The notes under the pieces: model-generated
What the model was told of the DNA's origin: nothing
The model's input: only the letters and a program-made list of their open reading frames with translations
Database searches by the model: none
Shown: positions 4,258 through 15,697 of the stretch, in pieces
Position numbering within the stretch: position 1 is the stretch's first letter
Layout of the letters: every line of letters starts with the position of its first letter
Position numbers and translations under genes: made by a program
Origin: a virus
Length of the DNA: 20,116 nt
Direction: 5' to 3' (one strand)
Virus record (IMG/VR): IMGVR_UViG_3300000117_000336
Location: 1,209 to 21,324 of that record

Positions 4258-7173
4258 TTATTCTGAGCGTCGATAGCCGAGGAGACGGTCTTTATCGTAG
4301 CTCTTGATTGATACGGAGTTGTTCTGGTTACCGCCGAGGACCAAGATATCCCCGTCATCATCGAACCCAGCGAAGAAGCCTACGTGACCCTTCCAGCTCG
4401 ATTTACTTTCACGCCAGAAGACAACCACGTCACCTTCTTGAGGCTCACTGACGCTCTTGCCCCAGTTCAGGAACGAGCGAGCATTGAGCTTTCCAGTGCC
4501 TTTCCTATCGACGCCATTAAGAACGGCGTTCACGAACCCAGCACACCAAGCCATATCCTTGACGTTATCAAACTGAGGATTGACCTGTTTGATGAAGGAC
4601 GTGAGGACTTTGTGATCATCGCTCTCGGTCTTCCCAAGGTATTCCTTAGCGAAGTCGAAGGCTGTAGTGGTCTTGAGGATTTCCTCTGGGTTGGCAGCGG
4701 ATGTATTGCTGATCATCTGCTGTGCAACGGACGTGACCTGTTGTAGCTCTGGGATACTTGCTGCAACGCTTAACGCGCTTCCACGCGGAGCTGCGGTATA
4801 CCCACTGGTCTCAGGTATTTGAGCAGGATCGACTGTAGGTACGCTTATAGTACTACGGGTCCCTGCGGCATTAATGGAGGCTCTACTAGCCACCTGTGCC
4901 ATCTGTGGGATCTGTTGCTCTTCACGAGTTACGTCAGGAGCTGTAGCTCGCTGTGCGCCACTAGATGTCGGTATAGCCGTAGGGCTGGAGGTTTCTGGAA
5001 CATCCAAGGTATCCCTAGATCCCGGCAGAACGATTGGAGGACGGTACGCCACACTGTCAGATCCGAGGACCTCTGGGATCTGTTGTTCTTCCCGAGAGAC
5101 GTTAGGTCTCATAGCTGGCTGGTAGCCACTAGAAGTGGGTACTTCCGTTGGACTAGAAGCCGCAGGTACATCAAGAGTCGCAAGGGCTGCTGGCAGATCC
5201 AACGTCGCAAGCTCACTAGGAGCGTCAAGCATATCTAGGGTTACGGTGGCTTGCTGTTCGCTAACACTGGTGCGCCGCCTCTCTTCCCTAACAGCCTCAG
5301 CTTCCTGAAGACGCTGCTCAAAGTCTACCATTGCTGCGGCAGGGTTGTTCTCATCAAAACTTGGAGGAAATTCTATCGTTGAGACTTGGGAAGGAACTTC
5401 AATCCCATCATCTTCATTTTCCCCTCTCAAGGCTGGACCAAAGTCTTCTTCCATGTCGGAAATGAATGTTTGGTCCTGAGAATCCATGAACGAAATGTAG
5501 TCTTTAAAGTACAGCTTTGCAGCTAAGTCTTTTTCGAGCTCATCCCGATTTTTGGAGTAATATTCAATCACCTTGTCTTTAAGTGTTTGCCCGTCGCCCG
5601 TGGGGGTTCGCAGAGCAAACTCGAGCGCATATAGCTTAGCATTGTCGAGAAACTTTTTCTGAGCTTCTGGGCCATCCCTCAGGGCTTGTTCCCATTGGTC
5701 ACGGTACTGCTCTTCATACGCCTCTAGGCGCAGCTTGATTAGCTTAGTGATGTTGGATTGTGGACCTGAACCATCGTTGGAGAAAAGTGGTTTAAACGTA
5801 TCCCCAGCGATATTATCTAACAGAGCGGTCAGACCGCCCAAGTTGGACTTAAAGTTCTTATACTCACCACTGAGTTCTAGGGGGGATGGAGTATTTACTT
5901 TAGTCTTTAGAAGCGTTTGGAAATCACCCGCAGTTAACTGAGAGAAAGCCCCTGTGTAGAAGGCAGCAAGGTTTTCGTAGTCACCATTGTTCTTCTGCTC
6001 TAGGAGTTGAGCCAAAGCCAATTGACTCGCAATCTCATCTGTCTCACGCGCTTCATTTTTCAATGCCTCCAAAAGAGCTTCGACGTGTCTATACTGCTTC
6101 ATCGCCGTCGAGGTATCTCCACCATAGATATTCACCAGCTCACCCAAAGATGCTCTAAATGCCGCTGGGTTACCCAAAGCTTGAGCCACTAGGTCCGAGA
6201 ACTCTTCGTCTTGGCGTTGCCGCTCCTGCTGCTGTTTTTCTTCAAGAACACTCATGACATGCCCTTGGAGACCGTTCGCTGCCTCAATCAATCTAGCTTT
6301 GTCTTCATTGTTAAATTCTCGAATGAAGCTCTTTGAGAACGCTGGGTCATCCACGTTATCAATCAAACCAGTCATCAGCTTGGCCAACGGTGCTGTGATG
6401 CTGACATCCTCAGTAGCCTGAATGACGCCCATCATACTTACCAGCCCATTAGTGAACATATCGTTACCACGAACACCCCGAGCATCCCTCAGTTTATCAC
6501 GCTCTGCCAAGAGGGCATCCATGAAGGCTTGGGGGTTATTAGGGTCTGCTTGCATCGCCAAGCTGTACGTGATCTCACTCACCGCCTTAGTTTCCCTGCG
6601 GATCATCTCATTGGCAGAGGCTTCTACGTTACCCGCTGAGTTCGCCTGAAAACTTTGGGACCAGATCGCCGCTACTTCCTGTTGAGCGGCTGCTGGGGCG
6701 TTTAGGATCGACTGTGTGGCGGCATCTGTCCAAGCGCTCTGAAAATCCGAAGCCTGATCAGGGTCACCCCACATTCCACTTAGTTGAACTTGCGTTGCGA
6801 AGTCCGCTGCGGCTTTGCTTGCCTGACCGACAACTTGATACTCTTGGTAAACCGCTTGGGAGTTGGGGTTCATGACCATTGCTTCTGAAAGGTCTTGACC
6901 AGTCAACCCAGCGATTTTACCAAGTTCTTTGGCTCGTGCTTCTGCTTCTGCTTGCTCTTCCTCAGCCAGCGCTAGCTCCTCAGCTTGAGACCTAGCGGTT
7001 AAGCGGCTTTCGTTGGCGGCAATGCGACCGAAGCTGGCATTCATTTGCGCAAACGCCCGTGCAAGCATCCGAGAATTCTGGCTCTCTAGCGGGGGGCGCA
7101 TATAGGCCGCACGGTTCTGGATTGAACCTGGCGTTGCCCCTCCACGCGCTGGGGCCTCTATGGGTGCTCTCAT
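4258..7173 (-). CDS. gp15-like internal virion protein with C-terminal NlpC/P60-CHAP type murein hydrolase
   Basis: This 971-residue protein lies between gp14- and gp16-like genes, the place of T7 gp15 (747 residues), a tube-forming ejection protein. Residues 1-620 are mostly Ala/Gln/Glu-rich helix, with an acidic coiled-coil segment near 60-90. Residues 666-810 form a Pro/Ser/Thr-rich linker with three degenerate repeats. Residues about 840-971 match the TIGR02594-like NlpC/P60-CHAP cysteine amidase pattern: AWC with likely nucleophile Cys877, then GTGKLNARSFLNWG, GDVVVFWR, GHVGF with His930, and VLGGNQ with Asn949. All the key residues are present, so the enzyme is probably active and cuts peptidoglycan to let the ejection conduit pass. 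A lysis role is possible but less likely in a virion gene. The start at 7173 follows an AGGA motif, and the gene begins 4 bases after the gp14-like stop. The ejection role is inferred from position; the hydrolase call rests on visible motifs. Confidence 0.85.
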   Translation of the reverse strand: MRAPIEAPARGGATPGSIQNRAAYMRPPLESQNSRMLARAFAQMNASFGRIAANESRLTARSQAEELALAEEEQAEAEARAKELGKIAGLTGQDLSEAMVMNPNSQAVYQEYQVVGQASKAAADFATQVQLSGMWGDPDQASDFQSAWTDAATQSILNAPAAAQQEVAAIWSQSFQANSAGNVEASANEMIRRETKAVSEITYSLAMQADPNNPQAFMDALLAERDKLRDARGVRGNDMFTNGLVSMMGVIQATEDVSITAPLAKLMTGLIDNVDDPAFSKSFIREFNNEDKARLIEAANGLQGHVMSVLEEKQQQERQRQDEEFSDLVAQALGNPAAFRASLGELVNIYGGDTSTAMKQYRHVEALLEALKNEARETDEIASQLALAQLLEQKNNGDYENLAAFYTGAFSQLTAGDFQTLLKTKVNTPSPLELSGEYKNFKSNLGGLTALLDNIAGDTFKPLFSNDGSGPQSNITKLIKLRLEAYEEQYRDQWEQALRDGPEAQKKFLDNAKLYALEFALRTPTGDGQTLKDKVIEYYSKNRDELEKDLAAKLYFKDYISFMDSQDQTFISDMEEDFGPALRGENEDDGIEVPSQVSTIEFPPSFDENNPAAAMVDFEQRLQEAEAVREERRRTSVSEQQATVTLDMLDAPSELATLDLPAALATLDVPAASSPTEVPTSSGYQPAMRPNVSREEQQIPEVLGSDSVAYRPPIVLPGSRDTLDVPETSSPTAIPTSSGAQRATAPDVTREEQQIPQMAQVASRASINAAGTRSTISVPTVDPAQIPETSGYTAAPRGSALSVAASIPELQQVTSVAQQMISNTSAANPEEILKTTTAFDFAKEYLGKTESDDHKVLTSFIKQVNPQFDNVKDMAWCAGFVNAVLNGVDRKGTGKLNARSFLNWGKSVSEPQEGDVVVFWRESKSSWKGHVGFFAGFDDDGDILVLGGNQNNSVSIKSYDKDRLLGYRRSE
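4744..5178 (-). repeat. Three degenerate protein-level repeats in the gp15-like linker
   Basis: Three related units of 36-37 residues lie at residues 666-702, 722-758 and 775-810 of the gp15-like protein (bases 5068-5178, 4900-5010 and 4744-4851), separated by spacers of 19 and 16 residues. Units 1 and 2 share TLDVP, SSPT, PTSSG and REEQQIP. Unit 3 keeps T-S-VP, ETSGY and a final SIPEL. Short TLD motifs just before unit 1 continue the pattern. The bases are diverged, so this is an old duplication rather than a recent array. It probably forms a flexible stalk for the hydrolase. Confidence 0.8.
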
Positions 7174-12139: not shown

Positions 12140-12168
12140 GTGCCTAATCCAATGGAAGAAAGAAGGGA

Positions 12169-12186
12169 GGGACCCCAAAGGATCCC
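12169..12186 (-). terminator. Hairpin after the capsid gene, possible weak terminator
   Basis: Read on the minus strand, GGGATCC and GGGTCCC pair over 7 bp (one T-G pair) around a 4-base loop. The following bases are pyrimidine-rich (CTCCCTTCTTTCTTCC) but lack a true T run. It lies directly after the capsid stop, the position of the leaky T-phi terminator in T7. It is probably a partial terminator or mRNA-processing hairpin that lowers tail relative to capsid expression. Confidence 0.5.
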
Positions 12187-12195
12187 CCCACAAAC

Positions 12196-13335
12196 TTAGA
12201 ATGCTGCTGCATCAGCGAGGTTGTTCACCTCGTAGAGACAGTCAGGACGGAGCGTAGCCATGCCACAGAGGAGCTTAGCCACCAGCAAGTTGCCCTGCTT
12301 AGCGACCGAGTACTCGCTCTCGGTGGTCAGATCTTGGAGCTTCGCCATGCCAAGACCCTCAGTGTGCAGGAACATGCCTACAGTTGCACGAGCGTCGATG
12401 GCGTAGTCGGTGCTGAAGCCACCGCTTGGGGTGCCGAGCGGGGTACGACCGTCAGGGCCGAAGTTATCATCTGCTGCACCAGTGCGACCGTTGGTGCCAA
12501 CACCAGCAGTGTTAGTACCGTCGATTGCCAAGTGGTTCGTTGGTACGATGTTGAATCCGGCTACCTTGTAGAGAACAGCGTCACCGAAGTTACCGTTACC
12601 TGCGCTGAAGTCGCTGTTGATAATGGTCTTATCGGTTTGGTTGATCAGGCGGTAGTAGGTCCGAGGGCTTACAAAGAGGTTACGACCTTCGGTAGGAATA
12701 TCGTTCTCATCGAAGTAGGCCGCAGCGTTAAACGCCTCAGTTACCAAGTTGGACGCAATGTCAGCATCAGCGACAGCGTTGAGGCGTTTGGAGATAGCGT
12801 TCTCCATGCCAGCAACACCAGCGCCTTGGCCGGAAGCAGCGTTTGCGATGGTGCCTTCACCGGGGGTCTGGCCGGAGACGTAAACGTCACCCGAGCGAGA
12901 ATCGCCAACCGCCATCTGGAACAGCGAGCGCTCAACGGTCAGGGCGATAGCCTGTGCCATTTGCTTGCTGTATTCAGAGCGGAATTCGAAGTGAGTCAGC
13001 ATCTCATCGATGTTGTGAATAAAGACCGAGCTCACAATGTAATCATTGATTGAAATCGTCTTTTCCGCACTAACCATAGATTGACCTACAATCTCCTGGC
13101 CCGGCACAAAGTGCTCTGCGGATGCTTGGCCAATCGCCGGGAACTGAGCGGTTTTGCCCCCAGAGATTGTGCGGGTGCGGATCTTGTCCTTGAGCCCAAA
13201 CTTTTCATCGAAATGCTTGAGGACTTCACCACCATAGGTTTTCAAAAGGAGGGCGCGAGACCCTGCGTAAGTATTATTGGTCGAGGCCGCAAAGTTTTGG
13301 ACGTTTGCTGGACTCGGAGTACCAGTCTGAGACAT
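12196..13335 (-). CDS. Major capsid protein (gp10-like)
   Basis: The product has 379 residues from the ATG at 13335 and forms the head shell with the HK97 fold. Family features are the early GSRALLLKTYGGEVLKHFDE, then KTAQFPAIGQASAEHFVPGQ, the segment ISINDYIVSSVFIHNIDEML, the ALTVERSLFQMA helix, and LFVSPRTYYRLI with GDAVLYKVAGFNIVPTNHL near the C-terminal half. T7 gp10A has 345 residues and P22-type shells are larger, so the length is normal. A strong AGAGGAA sits 5 bases before this ATG. The frame stays open for 43 further codons upstream to an ATG at 13464, but that start has no good ribosome binding site and adds a low-complexity segment, so I rejected it. The gene stands behind a long structured leader and before a hairpin, which suggests separate control. 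No programmed frameshift site for a longer form was seen. Confidence 0.95.
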   Translation of the reverse strand: MSQTGTPSPANVQNFAASTNNTYAGSRALLLKTYGGEVLKHFDEKFGLKDKIRTRTISGGKTAQFPAIGQASAEHFVPGQEIVGQSMVSAEKTISINDYIVSSVFIHNIDEMLTHFEFRSEYSKQMAQAIALTVERSLFQMAVGDSRSGDVYVSGQTPGEGTIANAASGQGAGVAGMENAISKRLNAVADADIASNLVTEAFNAAAYFDENDIPTEGRNLFVSPRTYYRLINQTDKTIINSDFSAGNGNFGDAVLYKVAGFNIVPTNHLAIDGTNTAGVGTNGRTGAADDNFGPDGRTPLGTPSGGFSTDYAIDARATVGMFLHTEGLGMAKLQDLTTESEYSVAKQGNLLVAKLLCGMATLRPDCLYEVNNLADAAAF

Positions 13336-13545
13336 GATATTTCCTCTGAGATATTCTGGTATTAGAAAGGATCGATCCCCGCGCTCTGAGCTGCGTATCT
13401 CCCTCAAGGTTATCCCCGCAGGGGCCAAGGGGCCTTCCGGTGTCGTAAGGCTTGGGGGTGTCATTCTTGGTCGTCACCAAGGCCGTTCCACTAAAGAGCG
13501 GCAACGGGGGGTGGGGCCTTGAAATACCAGTGGCCCCAAGTGAAA
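13336..13545 (-). promoter_or_regulatory. Structured leader region of the capsid gene
   Basis: This 210-base gap is the longest non-coding stretch in the window. It can form several hairpins: TGGGGCC/GGCCCCA (7 bp) at 13512-13538, CCAAG-CCTT/AAGG-CTTGG (9 bp with a 3-base bulge) at 13425-13455, and CCCC-GCA-GGGG at 13414-13424. None is followed by a T run on the minus strand, so they look like processing or stability structures rather than terminators. A promoter would be expected here, as in front of T7 gene 10, but I find no convincing -35/-10 pair and no repeated phage promoter elsewhere in the window. Confidence 0.45.
13341..13347 (-). promoter_or_regulatory. Strong ribosome binding site of the capsid gene
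   Basis: AGAGGAA on the minus strand, 5 bases before the ATG at 13335. It is among the best matches to the 16S rRNA 3' end in the window and decides the capsid start over the upstream in-frame ATG at 13464. Confidence 0.8.
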
Positions 13546-13776
13546 TTATCTGTTGCGTGAGCGGTTCTTCTTGCGAGACTGGATACGCAGGTTGCTCATG
13601 CTGTTGTTCTTTGGATTGCGATCTTTGTGGTCAATATCTTTTCCACGTACCGCCGCCTTACCCTTCTTTTTAATCATCAGCCGCCGAGCTTTCTTGCGAG
13701 CATCATTGCGCCGCCGTTGCTCTGGTCTCGACTGATAGTTGTCGTATTCTTTGCGGTAGTTCCGCTTACTTGCCAT
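13546..13776 (-). CDS. Small basic HNH-like protein
   Basis: This 76-residue, Arg/Lys-rich protein has a core GKDIDHKDRNPKNNSMSNLR (residues 45-64). The D-H followed by an N and then NLR resembles the central part of HNH nucleases, with His50 as the candidate base and Asn62 as the structural Asn. The final metal-binding His of classic HNH motifs appears to be Asn (near residue 71), and the zinc-ribbon Cys pairs are absent, so activity is uncertain. Related small HNH-like proteins are common beside phage capsid and packaging genes, where they may aid packaging or simply bind DNA. It overlaps the preceding lipoprotein gene by 11 bases and is the last gene before the capsid leader. Confidence 0.7.
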   Translation of the reverse strand: MASKRNYRKEYDNYQSRPEQRRRNDARKKARRLMIKKKGKAAVRGKDIDHKDRNPKNNSMSNLRIQSRKKNRSRNR

Positions 13777-13996
13777 CGCAGAATGCCTCCCGCTTGATGT
13801 TGTTCATAAAAATTTGGTCAACAGTGGCTAGCGTGTCGTACCGAGAGGCGTAGATATAATCCCAAGTTCCACAGGCTTGCTCAATCCCTGAACCAACCCT
13901 TGTCGCGCATCCGCTGATGGCGCTGATCAGGAGTAAGACGCAGACCATCGGAAGCAGCGTCGTGAGCAGCGCGAGAACGTCGATCCGCTTCTTCAT
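13766..13996 (-). CDS. Rz1-like outer-membrane lipoprotein (putative o-spanin)
   Basis: The 76-residue product has a basic start MKKR, a hydrophobic stretch (residues 7-28) and a lipobox I-S-G-C with Cys30, the pattern of a signal peptidase II lipoprotein. The mature part would be 47 residues with two further Cys (42 and 73). It contains TWDYIYASRYDTLATVDQI, a pattern I recall in small phage lipoproteins next to Rz-like genes. It starts inside the gene upstream, in a different frame, sharing 116 bases, which is the classic Rz/Rz1 layout. The predicted role is fusion of inner and outer membranes at lysis together with its partner. An AGGA motif precedes the ATG. It is shorter in Pro than lambda Rz1, so the call rests mostly on the lipobox and overlap. 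Confidence 0.65.
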   Translation of the reverse strand: MKKRIDVLALLTTLLPMVCVLLLISAISGCATRVGSGIEQACGTWDYIYASRYDTLATVDQIFMNNIKREAFCDGK

Positions 13997-14129
13997 CAGT
14001 CTCGTCCTTATATTTTTTTATAGCTGCGCGTTGGGATACAAAGACAAGGGCAACGAGAGCCGTAAGGATCGCTGCTGCTCGTGCCTTCCCGGCGTCAAAC
14101 CAAGACAGGATTATGGAAAGATAATTCAT
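13881..14129 (-). CDS. Rz-like inner-membrane protein (putative i-spanin)
   Basis: The 82-residue protein has one membrane segment (about residues 17-33, AAAILTALVALVFVS) followed by a highly charged, helical part rich in Lys, Asp, Glu and Arg that ends GWFRD. A single N-terminal membrane anchor plus a periplasmic helix is the i-spanin layout, although it is shorter than lambda Rz (153 residues). Its start overlaps the 45-residue gene stop by four bases (ATGA), and its C-terminal half overlaps the lipoprotein gene in another frame. An alternative is a small holin-like membrane protein; no other holin candidate was seen in the window. Confidence 0.6.
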   Translation of the reverse strand: MNYLSIILSWFDAGKARAAAILTALVALVFVSQRAAIKKYKDETDEEADRRSRAAHDAASDGLRLTPDQRHQRMRDKGWFRD

Positions 14130-14263
14130 GTCTTCCTTTTGAACCCGCCAGTCTTGTTTTTCATCTTGGAGTAAGTTTTTGGCGAGATGGTAGACTTACT
14201 CTTTGGTCGGCTCGTTCCAGCCTTCTTCCGAGCGTTCATATTTGAGTAAAGGCCTTTAGGCAT
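14126..14263 (-). CDS. 45-residue basic phage protein
   Basis: A short frame reads MPKGLYSNMNARKKAGTSRP, then KSKSTISPKTYSKMKNK, ending FKRKT. It is very rich in Lys, Ser and Thr with almost no acidic residues. The start M-P-K-G-L-Y-x-N resembles a small basic protein (typically MPKGLYANI-) seen in many marine and enterobacterial phages near structural genes, of unknown function. Support for coding: an AGGA motif before the ATG, position 1 base after the previous stop, and an ATGA overlap with the next gene. It could bind DNA or RNA or associate with virions. The function is not known to me. Confidence 0.75.
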   Translation of the reverse strand: MPKGLYSNMNARKKAGTSRPKSKSTISPKTYSKMKNKTGGFKRKT

Positions 14264-14264
14264 T

Positions 14265-14948
14265 TTAGCGGGTCCTTTTTAGGTAGAAGAGAAGGGTACG
14301 CCACCAAGCCCCACCTTCTTCGGTAGTCACCCGAGGCTCCTCAGGAGTGACGTAGCCCAACTCTTCCCTTGTCTTTTTGATTTTGTAGCCACGGTCACGC
14401 AGTCCTTCGCGGATGCCGTGAACCATTCCCCAGAACAACTCATCTACCACCGCTTGGTCATCCAAGTTGTAGACGATATGAAAAGCCTCGTAGCCAGGGG
14501 CAGAGGGGTGACGTGCGCCAGCTTCCCAACGCCCCATCGCTATCATAATGCGATAGAGCTTGTGGTATGCTTGCTCATCCTCGAACAGTAGAATTTGCTC
14601 TTCACTGTTAATGTTCACGTCGCGGCTGATTGTCTTCTTGTAGGTAGCCGAGTGGCCTGTGGCGTAGGCATTCATAATCATTGCGATAGATGTAAAGCCT
14701 CTTTCATCGAAGGCCCTGCGGATGACGTAATGACCCCAATAAGCTGCTCCTCCATAAACATGAGCAAACGCTGGGGTGGGGAGGATGGTGCCATCTGAGG
14801 CGGGTAAATCTTGAGCTGAGAGAGCCCCAAATCGCCTTTCATGTTTGCCCTTAGATGAGCCGATGGCACCGATGTTCCTCAGCCTCACTGAAGCTGGGAC
14901 TGTCTTGTCATGTACGCTGTAGGCCCACGGTCCAGTGTATAGGTCCAT
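14265..14948 (-). CDS. Unknown 227-residue protein, possible phage peptidoglycan hydrolase
   Basis: The gene lies between the scaffold and the spanin-like pair. The central part (residues 20-145) has an RNIGAI start, then RRFG, a downstream DG, then FAHVYGGAAYWGHYVIRRAFDERGF, SIAMIMNAYA and a Y-K-K-x-I motif, followed by an L...IMIAMGRWEAG helix. This order of short motifs resembles phage lysins of the RNNNPxN type (F, G, a helix with RG-x-x-x-I, INxYA, Y). The NPxN core itself is not present, so the match is weak. The C-terminus (GGAWWRTLLFYLKR) is hydrophobic and could touch membrane. A GAGGA motif stands shortly before the ATG. Alternatives are a minor head protein or an uncharacterised virion protein. 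Its place before spanin-like genes makes an endolysin plausible. Confidence 0.4.
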   Translation of the reverse strand: MDLYTGPWAYSVHDKTVPASVRLRNIGAIGSSKGKHERRFGALSAQDLPASDGTILPTPAFAHVYGGAAYWGHYVIRRAFDERGFTSIAMIMNAYATGHSATYKKTISRDVNINSEEQILLFEDEQAYHKLYRIMIAMGRWEAGARHPSAPGYEAFHIVYNLDDQAVVDELFWGMVHGIREGLRDRGYKIKKTREELGYVTPEEPRVTTEEGGAWWRTLLFYLKRTR

Positions 14949-14956
14949 TGGGTCCT

Positions 14957-15697
14957 CTATAGGTTACTGCGTCCAATCTTCTGCACGACGCTATTGTTAT
15001 AAGCAGGGTCGGTCTCATACCGAGGGTCACTCATGGCTTCTTTAACCTGAGCCCATGACTCAAAACGATCTGCAGTTGCCGAGGTTCCTCCCTCGATTTG
15101 GCGGAGAGGCTCTTTAGGTTCACCCTCAGCCTTGCGTGCCTTCAATCCAGAGATAGCTAGTTTGATTGCTGCCACATCATTCGAGGCAATAGTCTTGTTA
15201 AAACTATCGATTTCAGGCTCAGACAGGGCATCACCAGCCCACTCAATCAGATCGATATACTGCTCCCTTCCACCTGAATACTCAAAGATTTCAGTGACTT
15301 GAGCATCGACAATGGCTTGCTGGCCAGCGATATACTTATCGACAACATCCTTTGTGAACCCAGCCTTTTCTGCTGCTTCATAACTATCTGGGCTTAGCTC
15401 ACCCTTCTCTTGGTACTCTTTTTCAAGTGCAGATAGATCGATGTTCTCGTTTTGCAGGAGGGTATCCCGAGTTAGAGTCTCAGGTTCATCCTGAGCCTCA
15501 GCAGATCCCATCTTCTTTTCTAAGTTCGCATAAGCCGCTGCCATTGCCTCGGGCGTCTCAAATTTTTCAGGGAGCCAATCAGGGCGGGGGGGAGCATCTT
15601 GAGCCGCTGTTGCTTCGGCTTCGGCTACATACTGCTCAGGGGTTTTTTCAATATTCTCGGTAGAGGTATCAATAGAAACGGAGGTGACTTCACCCAT
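14957..15697 (-). CDS. Capsid assembly scaffold protein (gp9-like)
   Basis: The 246-residue acidic protein lies between portal and capsid genes as scaffolds do; T7 gp9 has 307 residues. Residues about 35-63 contain PPRPDWLPEKFETPEAMAAAY followed by NLEKKMG, a common N-terminal pattern of podovirus scaffolds. The middle is Glu/Ala-rich helix. The C-terminus has the usual capsid-binding element: FESWAQVKEAMSDPRYETD, then AYNNSVVQKIGRSN. It drives shell assembly with the portal and leaves before DNA packaging. The start at 15697 has only a weak AGGA about 13 bases upstream, but no better start exists. It follows the portal stop by 7 bases. Confidence 0.92.
   Translation of the reverse strand: MGEVTSVSIDTSTENIEKTPEQYVAEAEATAAQDAPPRPDWLPEKFETPEAMAAAYANLEKKMGSAEAQDEPETLTRDTLLQNENIDLSALEKEYQEKGELSPDSYEAAEKAGFTKDVVDKYIAGQQAIVDAQVTEIFEYSGGREQYIDLIEWAGDALSEPEIDSFNKTIASNDVAAIKLAISGLKARKAEGEPKEPLRQIEGGTSATADRFESWAQVKEAMSDPRYETDPAYNNSVVQKIGRSNL

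Follow-up and report, generated by a model that had tools for sequence, protein, structure and literature searches.

Do the genes that separate scaffold from capsid in this T7-like virus form a lysis cassette, and if so, what does their position inside the head operon mean? A preliminary description of this DNA had proposed that a possible lysin, a membrane-anchored charged protein and a lipoprotein follow one another there, and had contrasted this arrangement with that of T7, in which, as the annotation of the T7 record bears out, the amidase is encoded early and the holin and Rz-like genes late. Our reading, to which we assign a probability of roughly 80%, is that these genes make up a host-lysis module like that of the Hafnia phage Enc34, with a proposed N-acetylglucosaminidase endolysin and overlapping spanin genes, set in the scaffold/capsid slot of a T7-like genome.

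Gene order and borders of the cassette

The stretch analyzed here, which we call the window, comprises 20,116 nucleotides (bases 1209-21324 of a 21,324-base IMG/VR virus record) and carries T7-like genes on the minus strand. Family matches identified portal, scaffold and capsid genes together with internal virion proteins resembling gp13, gp14 and gp15, and gp11- and gp12-like genes were assigned by size and order; the early region and the terminase region both fall outside this contig. The three open frames proposed earlier, of 227, 82 and 76 aa, were found on the minus strand where they had been placed, and the families of the two bordering genes confirm that they sit between scaffold and capsid. 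The earlier gene list had missed two members of the series, a 45-aa ORF and an HNH gene. In the order of transcription, the features are:

14957..15697, minus strand: scaffold (capsid assembly) gene, T7 gp9-like, upstream border (PF05396, E 1.9e-24; phrog_1052, E 1.4e-55)
14265..14948, minus strand: putative Enc34-type endolysin, 227 aa (fold match to 7q47; profile match; invariant residues in 14 rows)
14126..14263, minus strand: basic protein, 45 aa (matched in 20 of the 24 relatives tested, those with both spanins)
13881..14129, minus strand: candidate i-spanin (Rz-like), 82 aa (hydropathy; 8 relatives; hhalign to Enc34 ORF40)
13766..13996, minus strand: putative o-spanin (Rz1-like) lipoprotein, 76 aa (phrog_1275; hhalign to Enc34 ORF41; invariant Gly29-Cys30)
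13546..13776, minus strand: small HNH endonuclease-like gene in the interval between spanins and capsid (PF13392, E 2.1e-7; phrog_4590, E 5.9e-17)
12196..13335, minus strand: major capsid gene, downstream border (PF21703, E 3.3e-43; start moved from 13464)

For the capsid gene, a start at 13335 is more likely than one at 13464. Between the scaffold stop and the start of the lysin gene lie 8 nt, the stop of the 45-aa ORF overlaps the start of the i-spanin gene (ATGA), and the i-spanin and o-spanin genes overlap by 116 nt in different frames. No promoter was found by a sigma-70 scan (0 found, 3.0 expected) or by an 18-mer comparison of the gaps.

The non-coding DNA around the capsid gene has features of its own. 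Just past the capsid stop, at the place of Tphi in T7, lies a terminator-like hairpin (window 12166-12189, minus strand); the scan gave four such hairpins in total against 4.2 in shuffles, i.e., no excess. The capsid leader (window 13337-13545, minus strand, and the same gap in relatives) carries a conserved hairpin. Across 11 sequences, all 55 cells of its inner five-pair stem are paired, and in 4 of these sequences one pair differs on both of its sides. The number of paired cells and the covariation score were reached by 1 of 500 shuffles, but the tally of changed pairs by 462 and that of pair types by 492, so the covariation is thin. A second hairpin, with the loop UGACGA, is present in 6 of the 11 rows. 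The leader matched no Rfam family at the gathering score (one chance match, E 3.2), and no tRNA was found in it.

Likeness of the putative lysin and spanins to those of Enc34

The 227-aa protein had no match in Pfam, NCBIfam or PHROG (its long relatives gave E 0.026 or worse) and none among PDB sequences, against which its alignment produced one chance match (E 1.1). Its predicted fold matched the all-helical catalytic domain of the Enc34 endolysin, 7q47 (Foldseek E 6.7e-5, probability 1.00), and the two chains of this entry were the only Foldseek matches with E <= 0.001. The VIA Z to 7q47 was 11.3 over 140 residues at 19 percent identity, the next entry reaching Z 3.9, and the TM-score was modest (0.44 by query, 0.60 by target). 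The fold model used has a mean pLDDT of 78.9 and was built from 15 sequences, with the five models spanning 58.2-78.9. Profile comparison pointed in the same direction: when the lysin family was aligned with hhalign to the single Enc34 sequence, the result was E 0.093 (probability 0.6), against eight Enc34-type proteins it was E 1.4e-3 (probability 17.6), and after the query had been enlarged by two gp15-type domains it was E 3.3e-5 (probability 72.2). With alignments trimmed to the catalytic domain, the real score of either query was reached by none of 200 column-shuffled Enc34-type profiles. Tyr95, Tyr103 and the putative catalytic Glu142 of the lysin are invariant in 14 alignment rows and align with Enc34 Trp79, Tyr95 and Glu131, the lysin's Tyr95 being an aromatic residue in place of Trp; these Enc34 residues are proposed for catalysis in the Enc34 report (PMC8943055), whose numbering is one less than that of the Enc34 translation. 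The protein thus has the predicted fold and the catalytic positions of Enc34-type (PHA02564) endolysins but is not recognized by the family's sequence models, and its membership is detectable only by profile-profile and fold comparison. On this basis its assignment as an Enc34-type endolysin, with a proposed N-acetylglucosaminidase activity, is supported, and the possible lysin of the preliminary description (14265-14948) can be given a predicted family.

In Enc34 and in part of the relatives of the window's lysin, the enzyme ends in two hydrophobic helices, an uncommon layout according to the Enc34 report (PMC8943055). This C-terminal hairpin is matched in 11 of 28 relatives, has no match in 14 and is cut off in 3; the window's own lysin lacks such a membrane domain and has a short cationic tail in its place. 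In one relative the hairpin was modeled as helices 222-247 and 252-274, with middling pLDDT (61-76) over the block. On the tree of the catalytic domain, 5 gains or losses of the hairpin are needed, against a shuffled mean of 5.9. Matches of lysin relatives to the 'holin' PHROG 962 were set aside as weak (4 of 9 members, best E 0.33).

The lipoprotein proposed earlier at 13766-13996 falls in PHROG 1275 'Rz-like spanin' (E 6.4e-7), as does Enc34 ORF41, with which it also aligns directly (hhalign E 3.5e-5). It has a signal sequence followed by ISGC at residues 27-30, which, going by the usual consensus, we take to be a lipobox; Gly29-Cys30 are invariant in nine rows, and the gene overlaps that of the i-spanin in another frame. 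These traits support its identification as an o-spanin. The 82-aa protein, previously described as a membrane-anchored charged protein at 13881-14129, shows by hydropathy a single N-terminal hydrophobic helix (mean hydropathy peak 1.95, residues 19-37) and a charged second half, as would an i-spanin, and has eight relatives that are 39-78% identical. Its alignment with Enc34 ORF40 (hhalign E 1.1e-4) runs mostly over the membrane helix, and for this reason its identification as an i-spanin is more weakly supported. Another record with an o-spanin match, MW202711, has no recognizable head or lysis genes beside the match. In Enc34, the endolysin (ORF39) has the same catalytic fold and positions and is likewise followed by overlapping i-spanin and o-spanin genes (ORF40 and ORF41). 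Since the lysin, the i-spanin and the o-spanin of the window all match this set, we regard them as one Enc34-like module. There are differences as well: in Enc34 (PMC8943055), the module follows the virion genes and has the holin-like ORF38 directly before it, whereas that of the window occupies the scaffold/capsid slot, with no adjacent holin and no hairpin.

The scaffold/capsid slot in relatives and other T7-like phages

Two scans yielded 28 distinct viral contigs with a relative of the 227-aa protein, duplicates (four contigs) being counted once; several of the 28 are near-identical, so that independent cases are fewer. By tblastn, the order scaffold, lysin, i-spanin, o-spanin, HNH, capsid is complete in 21 of the 28, the other seven being cut by contig ends. 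This gene order is more than chance and, together with the fold, profile and spanin matches, it supports the core of the preliminary description, a lysis cassette inside the head module. An extra basic protein of 76-84 aa, absent from the window, precedes the i-spanin in 16 of the 24 relatives with both spanins. All relatives of the lysin come from viral contigs: tblastn (E 0.01) against 50,697 phage records found none, and neither did tblastn with a gp15-type domain nor a scan of genome contigs.

The position itself has an annotated precedent. In the T7-like Rhizobium phage Pasto (MT708545), an annotated endolysin, holin, i-spanin and o-spanin lie exactly between scaffold and capsid, although the lysin is a different one, a T7 gp3.5-type amidase with intact zinc ligands. 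The Pasto o-spanin matches PHROG 456 weakly (E 0.0064), its i-spanin matches no lysis PHROG, and the text of the Pasto announcement uses none of the terms lysis, spanin, endolysin or holin. In Roseobacter phage CRP-403, a marine T7-like relative, this slot contains an HNH gene, and the likely lysin of that phage, gp39, lies after the tail fibre beside the i-spanin-like gp40 and has a hydrophobic tail. This gp39 is related to the CHAP domain encoded in the window (48% identity), and gp40 is not matched by the window's i-spanin (E 0.25). Judging by annotation, the slot holds only small genes in CRP-403, CRP-125, LUZ100 (which also has a tRNA there) and HTVC109P, and one small gene plus a tRNA in RHEph21. 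Limnohabitans phage YIMV22061 was not counted, as no scaffold gene is annotated in it. The slot takes insertions and, because Pasto has a different lysis set there, has received lysis genes at least twice. Our literature search found no publication on lysis genes at the scaffold/capsid position, which is no proof of absence.

The preliminary description had further suggested that placing these genes before the capsid gene would tie the timing of lysis to head assembly. In T7 the spanins are already late genes, and therefore timing would change mainly for the lysin. The position may have evolved so that lysis would be coupled to head assembly, a reading compatible with an Enc34-like lysis module in this slot; both the close succession of scaffold and lysin genes and the presence of Pasto's different set in the same place speak for it. 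Nevertheless, we consider such coupling improbable, as other T7-like phages carry small genes, an HNH gene or a tRNA at this point and the slot may simply tolerate insertions.

The T7 lysozyme homologue, gp15 and the rest of the proposed lysis system

Like T7, whose lysis genes are 3.5, 17.5, 18.5 and 18.7, the relatives still encode a gp3.5 homologue, and they have small membrane proteins by the terminase. Unlike T7, they carry their spanins and another kind of lysin within the head operon, and their gp3.5 has lost His122, Lys128 and Cys130. In relatives that reach the early region, this homologue is found where T7 has it, flanked by endonuclease I and primase, and four contigs (G001, G002, G007 and G008) hold both it and the head-operon lysin; of the 22 records with a gp3.5 homologue, 17 lack a lysin match, and each of these is shorter than 14 kb. 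The zinc residues of T7 lysozyme are His17, His122 and Cys130 (PMC4573324), and the site we scored consisted of these, Tyr46 (by water) and Lys128. His122, Lys128 and Cys130 were missing in 16 of 16 distinct homologues, a count biased by the scan query, an alignment of four zinc-less sequences with which intact homologues are harder to find. His17 was kept in all 15 homologues that reach that site, and Tyr46 was replaced in 11 of 15. With those three residues gone, the homologue is probably dead as an amidase. In T7 lysozyme, Y46F or K128T leaves the inhibition of RNA polymerase largely intact (PMC4573324). Among other phages, RHEph21 and Pasto have gp3.5-type proteins that keep all the residues scored, while the gp12 'lysozyme' of CRP-403 (L016:7170-7592) also lacks H122, K128 and C130. 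We do not claim that the presence of the lysin is tied to the decay of gp3.5, since CRP-403 lost the same zinc ligands without having such a lysin. A PF01510 search of 12 relatives' records gave no match. The profile misses the degenerate gp3.5 homologues, which four of these records proved to contain on reading and by tblastn. No publication on zinc-less T7 lysozyme homologues was found in a literature search, again no proof of absence.

The preliminary description would have been called into question by a complete standard lysis cassette elsewhere in the genome. We looked for one in two relatives, G003, which extends from the portal to the terminase, and G023, which runs from the last part of the lysin to gp3.5, using tblastn with the lysis proteins of T7, Enc34, CRP-403, Pasto and the family itself. 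The search returned the head-operon spanins once in each, domains on gp15, and the gp3.5 homologue in G023; there was no lysin gene or second spanin pair near the terminase or between tail fibre and terminase. Outside the head operon, tblastn likewise found no lysin gene, only domains on gp15 in G003, G004 and G023. The terminase side of G003 and G023 comprises, by PHROGs, the tail fibre, the terminase and unknown proteins. Near the terminase, both encode a protein of 97-98 aa, hydrophobic in its C-terminal part, whose matches to a hemolysin PHROG are weak (E 0.0011 in G003, 0.036 in G023), and G003 also encodes one of 69 aa that matches nothing below E 0.1. These small membrane proteins may be holins, which is a guess.

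The domains on gp15 bear on a different explanation, namely that the 227-aa protein is packaged in the virion as a peptidoglycan hydrolase aiding genome entry, with only the spanin pair serving lysis. The gene has head genes for neighbors, and in G004, G005 and G023 the gp15-like internal virion protein ends in a related domain. In T7-like phages of E. coli, LM33_P1 among them, Enc34-type domains are likewise part of internal virion proteins, and 5 of the best 12 BFVD neighbors go by the name of 'Virion protein' or 'Internal virion protein D'. The objection foreseen earlier, that homologues might prove to be virion proteins, is thus partly borne out, inasmuch as a related domain does occur on gp15 and on virion proteins of other phages. 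Against a virion role, however, every one of the 24 contigs with both spanins (contigs chosen by the lysin) encodes the 227-aa protein in a free-standing gene near the pair, some relatives carry the Enc34-like hydrophobic hairpin, the window's gp15-like protein (4258-7173, minus strand) already ends in a CHAP hydrolase domain of its own (E 2.8e-7), and the relatives would otherwise have no evident dedicated lysin, because their gp3.5 is without zinc ligands. We therefore regard packaging in the virion as a real but unlikely alternative.

The ends of gp15 themselves vary. G003, like the window, has CHAP there and G004 an Enc34-type domain, despite 97-99 percent identity over long nearby stretches. 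Identity between the two contigs is 99.5 percent along 6.7 kb containing the lysis cassette and 91-97 percent in other matching stretches. Because gp15 ends differ between such closely matching contigs, wall-cutting domains appear to have been exchanged in this gene.

It is very improbable that the 227-aa protein, while sharing the fold, serves some other purpose (e.g., as a moron or host-modifying protein), with the lysin encoded elsewhere: although it has no family-level sequence match and the window's record of 21324 bases is about half the size of the T7 genome (39937), its catalytic positions are invariant, the neighboring spanins match the Enc34 set, and no further lysin was seen in G001 and G003 (frames read) or in G003 and G023 (tblastn) save the gp15 domains and the zinc-less gp3.5.

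From what was observed directly, that is, the gene order, the homologies, the conserved residues and the zinc-ligand loss in relatives, an Enc34-like lysis module in the head operon would most likely work as follows, given the familiar modes of action of holins and spanins. The lysis genes would be expressed with the late head operon, the lysin would cut the glycan strands of peptidoglycan, and the spanin pair would then disrupt the outer membrane. Access to the wall would probably depend on a holin encoded elsewhere, and the two-helix tail may help in those relatives that have it. If the window's own early region is like that of its relatives, its T7-type lysozyme homologue would probably no longer be lytic and may survive as an RNA polymerase regulator. 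The whole looks like a split lysis system whose Enc34-type lysin and spanins have been relocated to the head operon, and the relatives suggest that the genes there took over from the T7-type wall-cutting enzyme.

T7 lysozyme is the textbook example of a two-in-one protein, wall amidase and RNA polymerase inhibitor. Tentatively, and with slightly less than even confidence, we propose that this clade split the two jobs, keeping a dead gp3.5 for control of RNA polymerase and using the Enc34-type lysin and spanins of the head operon for lysis, while wall-cutting domains move in and out of gp15. If this is true, a clade that has lost the amidase site while keeping the gene would let both functions of T7 lysozyme be studied apart. 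Annotating such gp3.5 homologues as endolysins by family match would then be misleading. The findings would also extend the Enc34 lysin family into T7-like phages, in a form missed by ordinary family searches.
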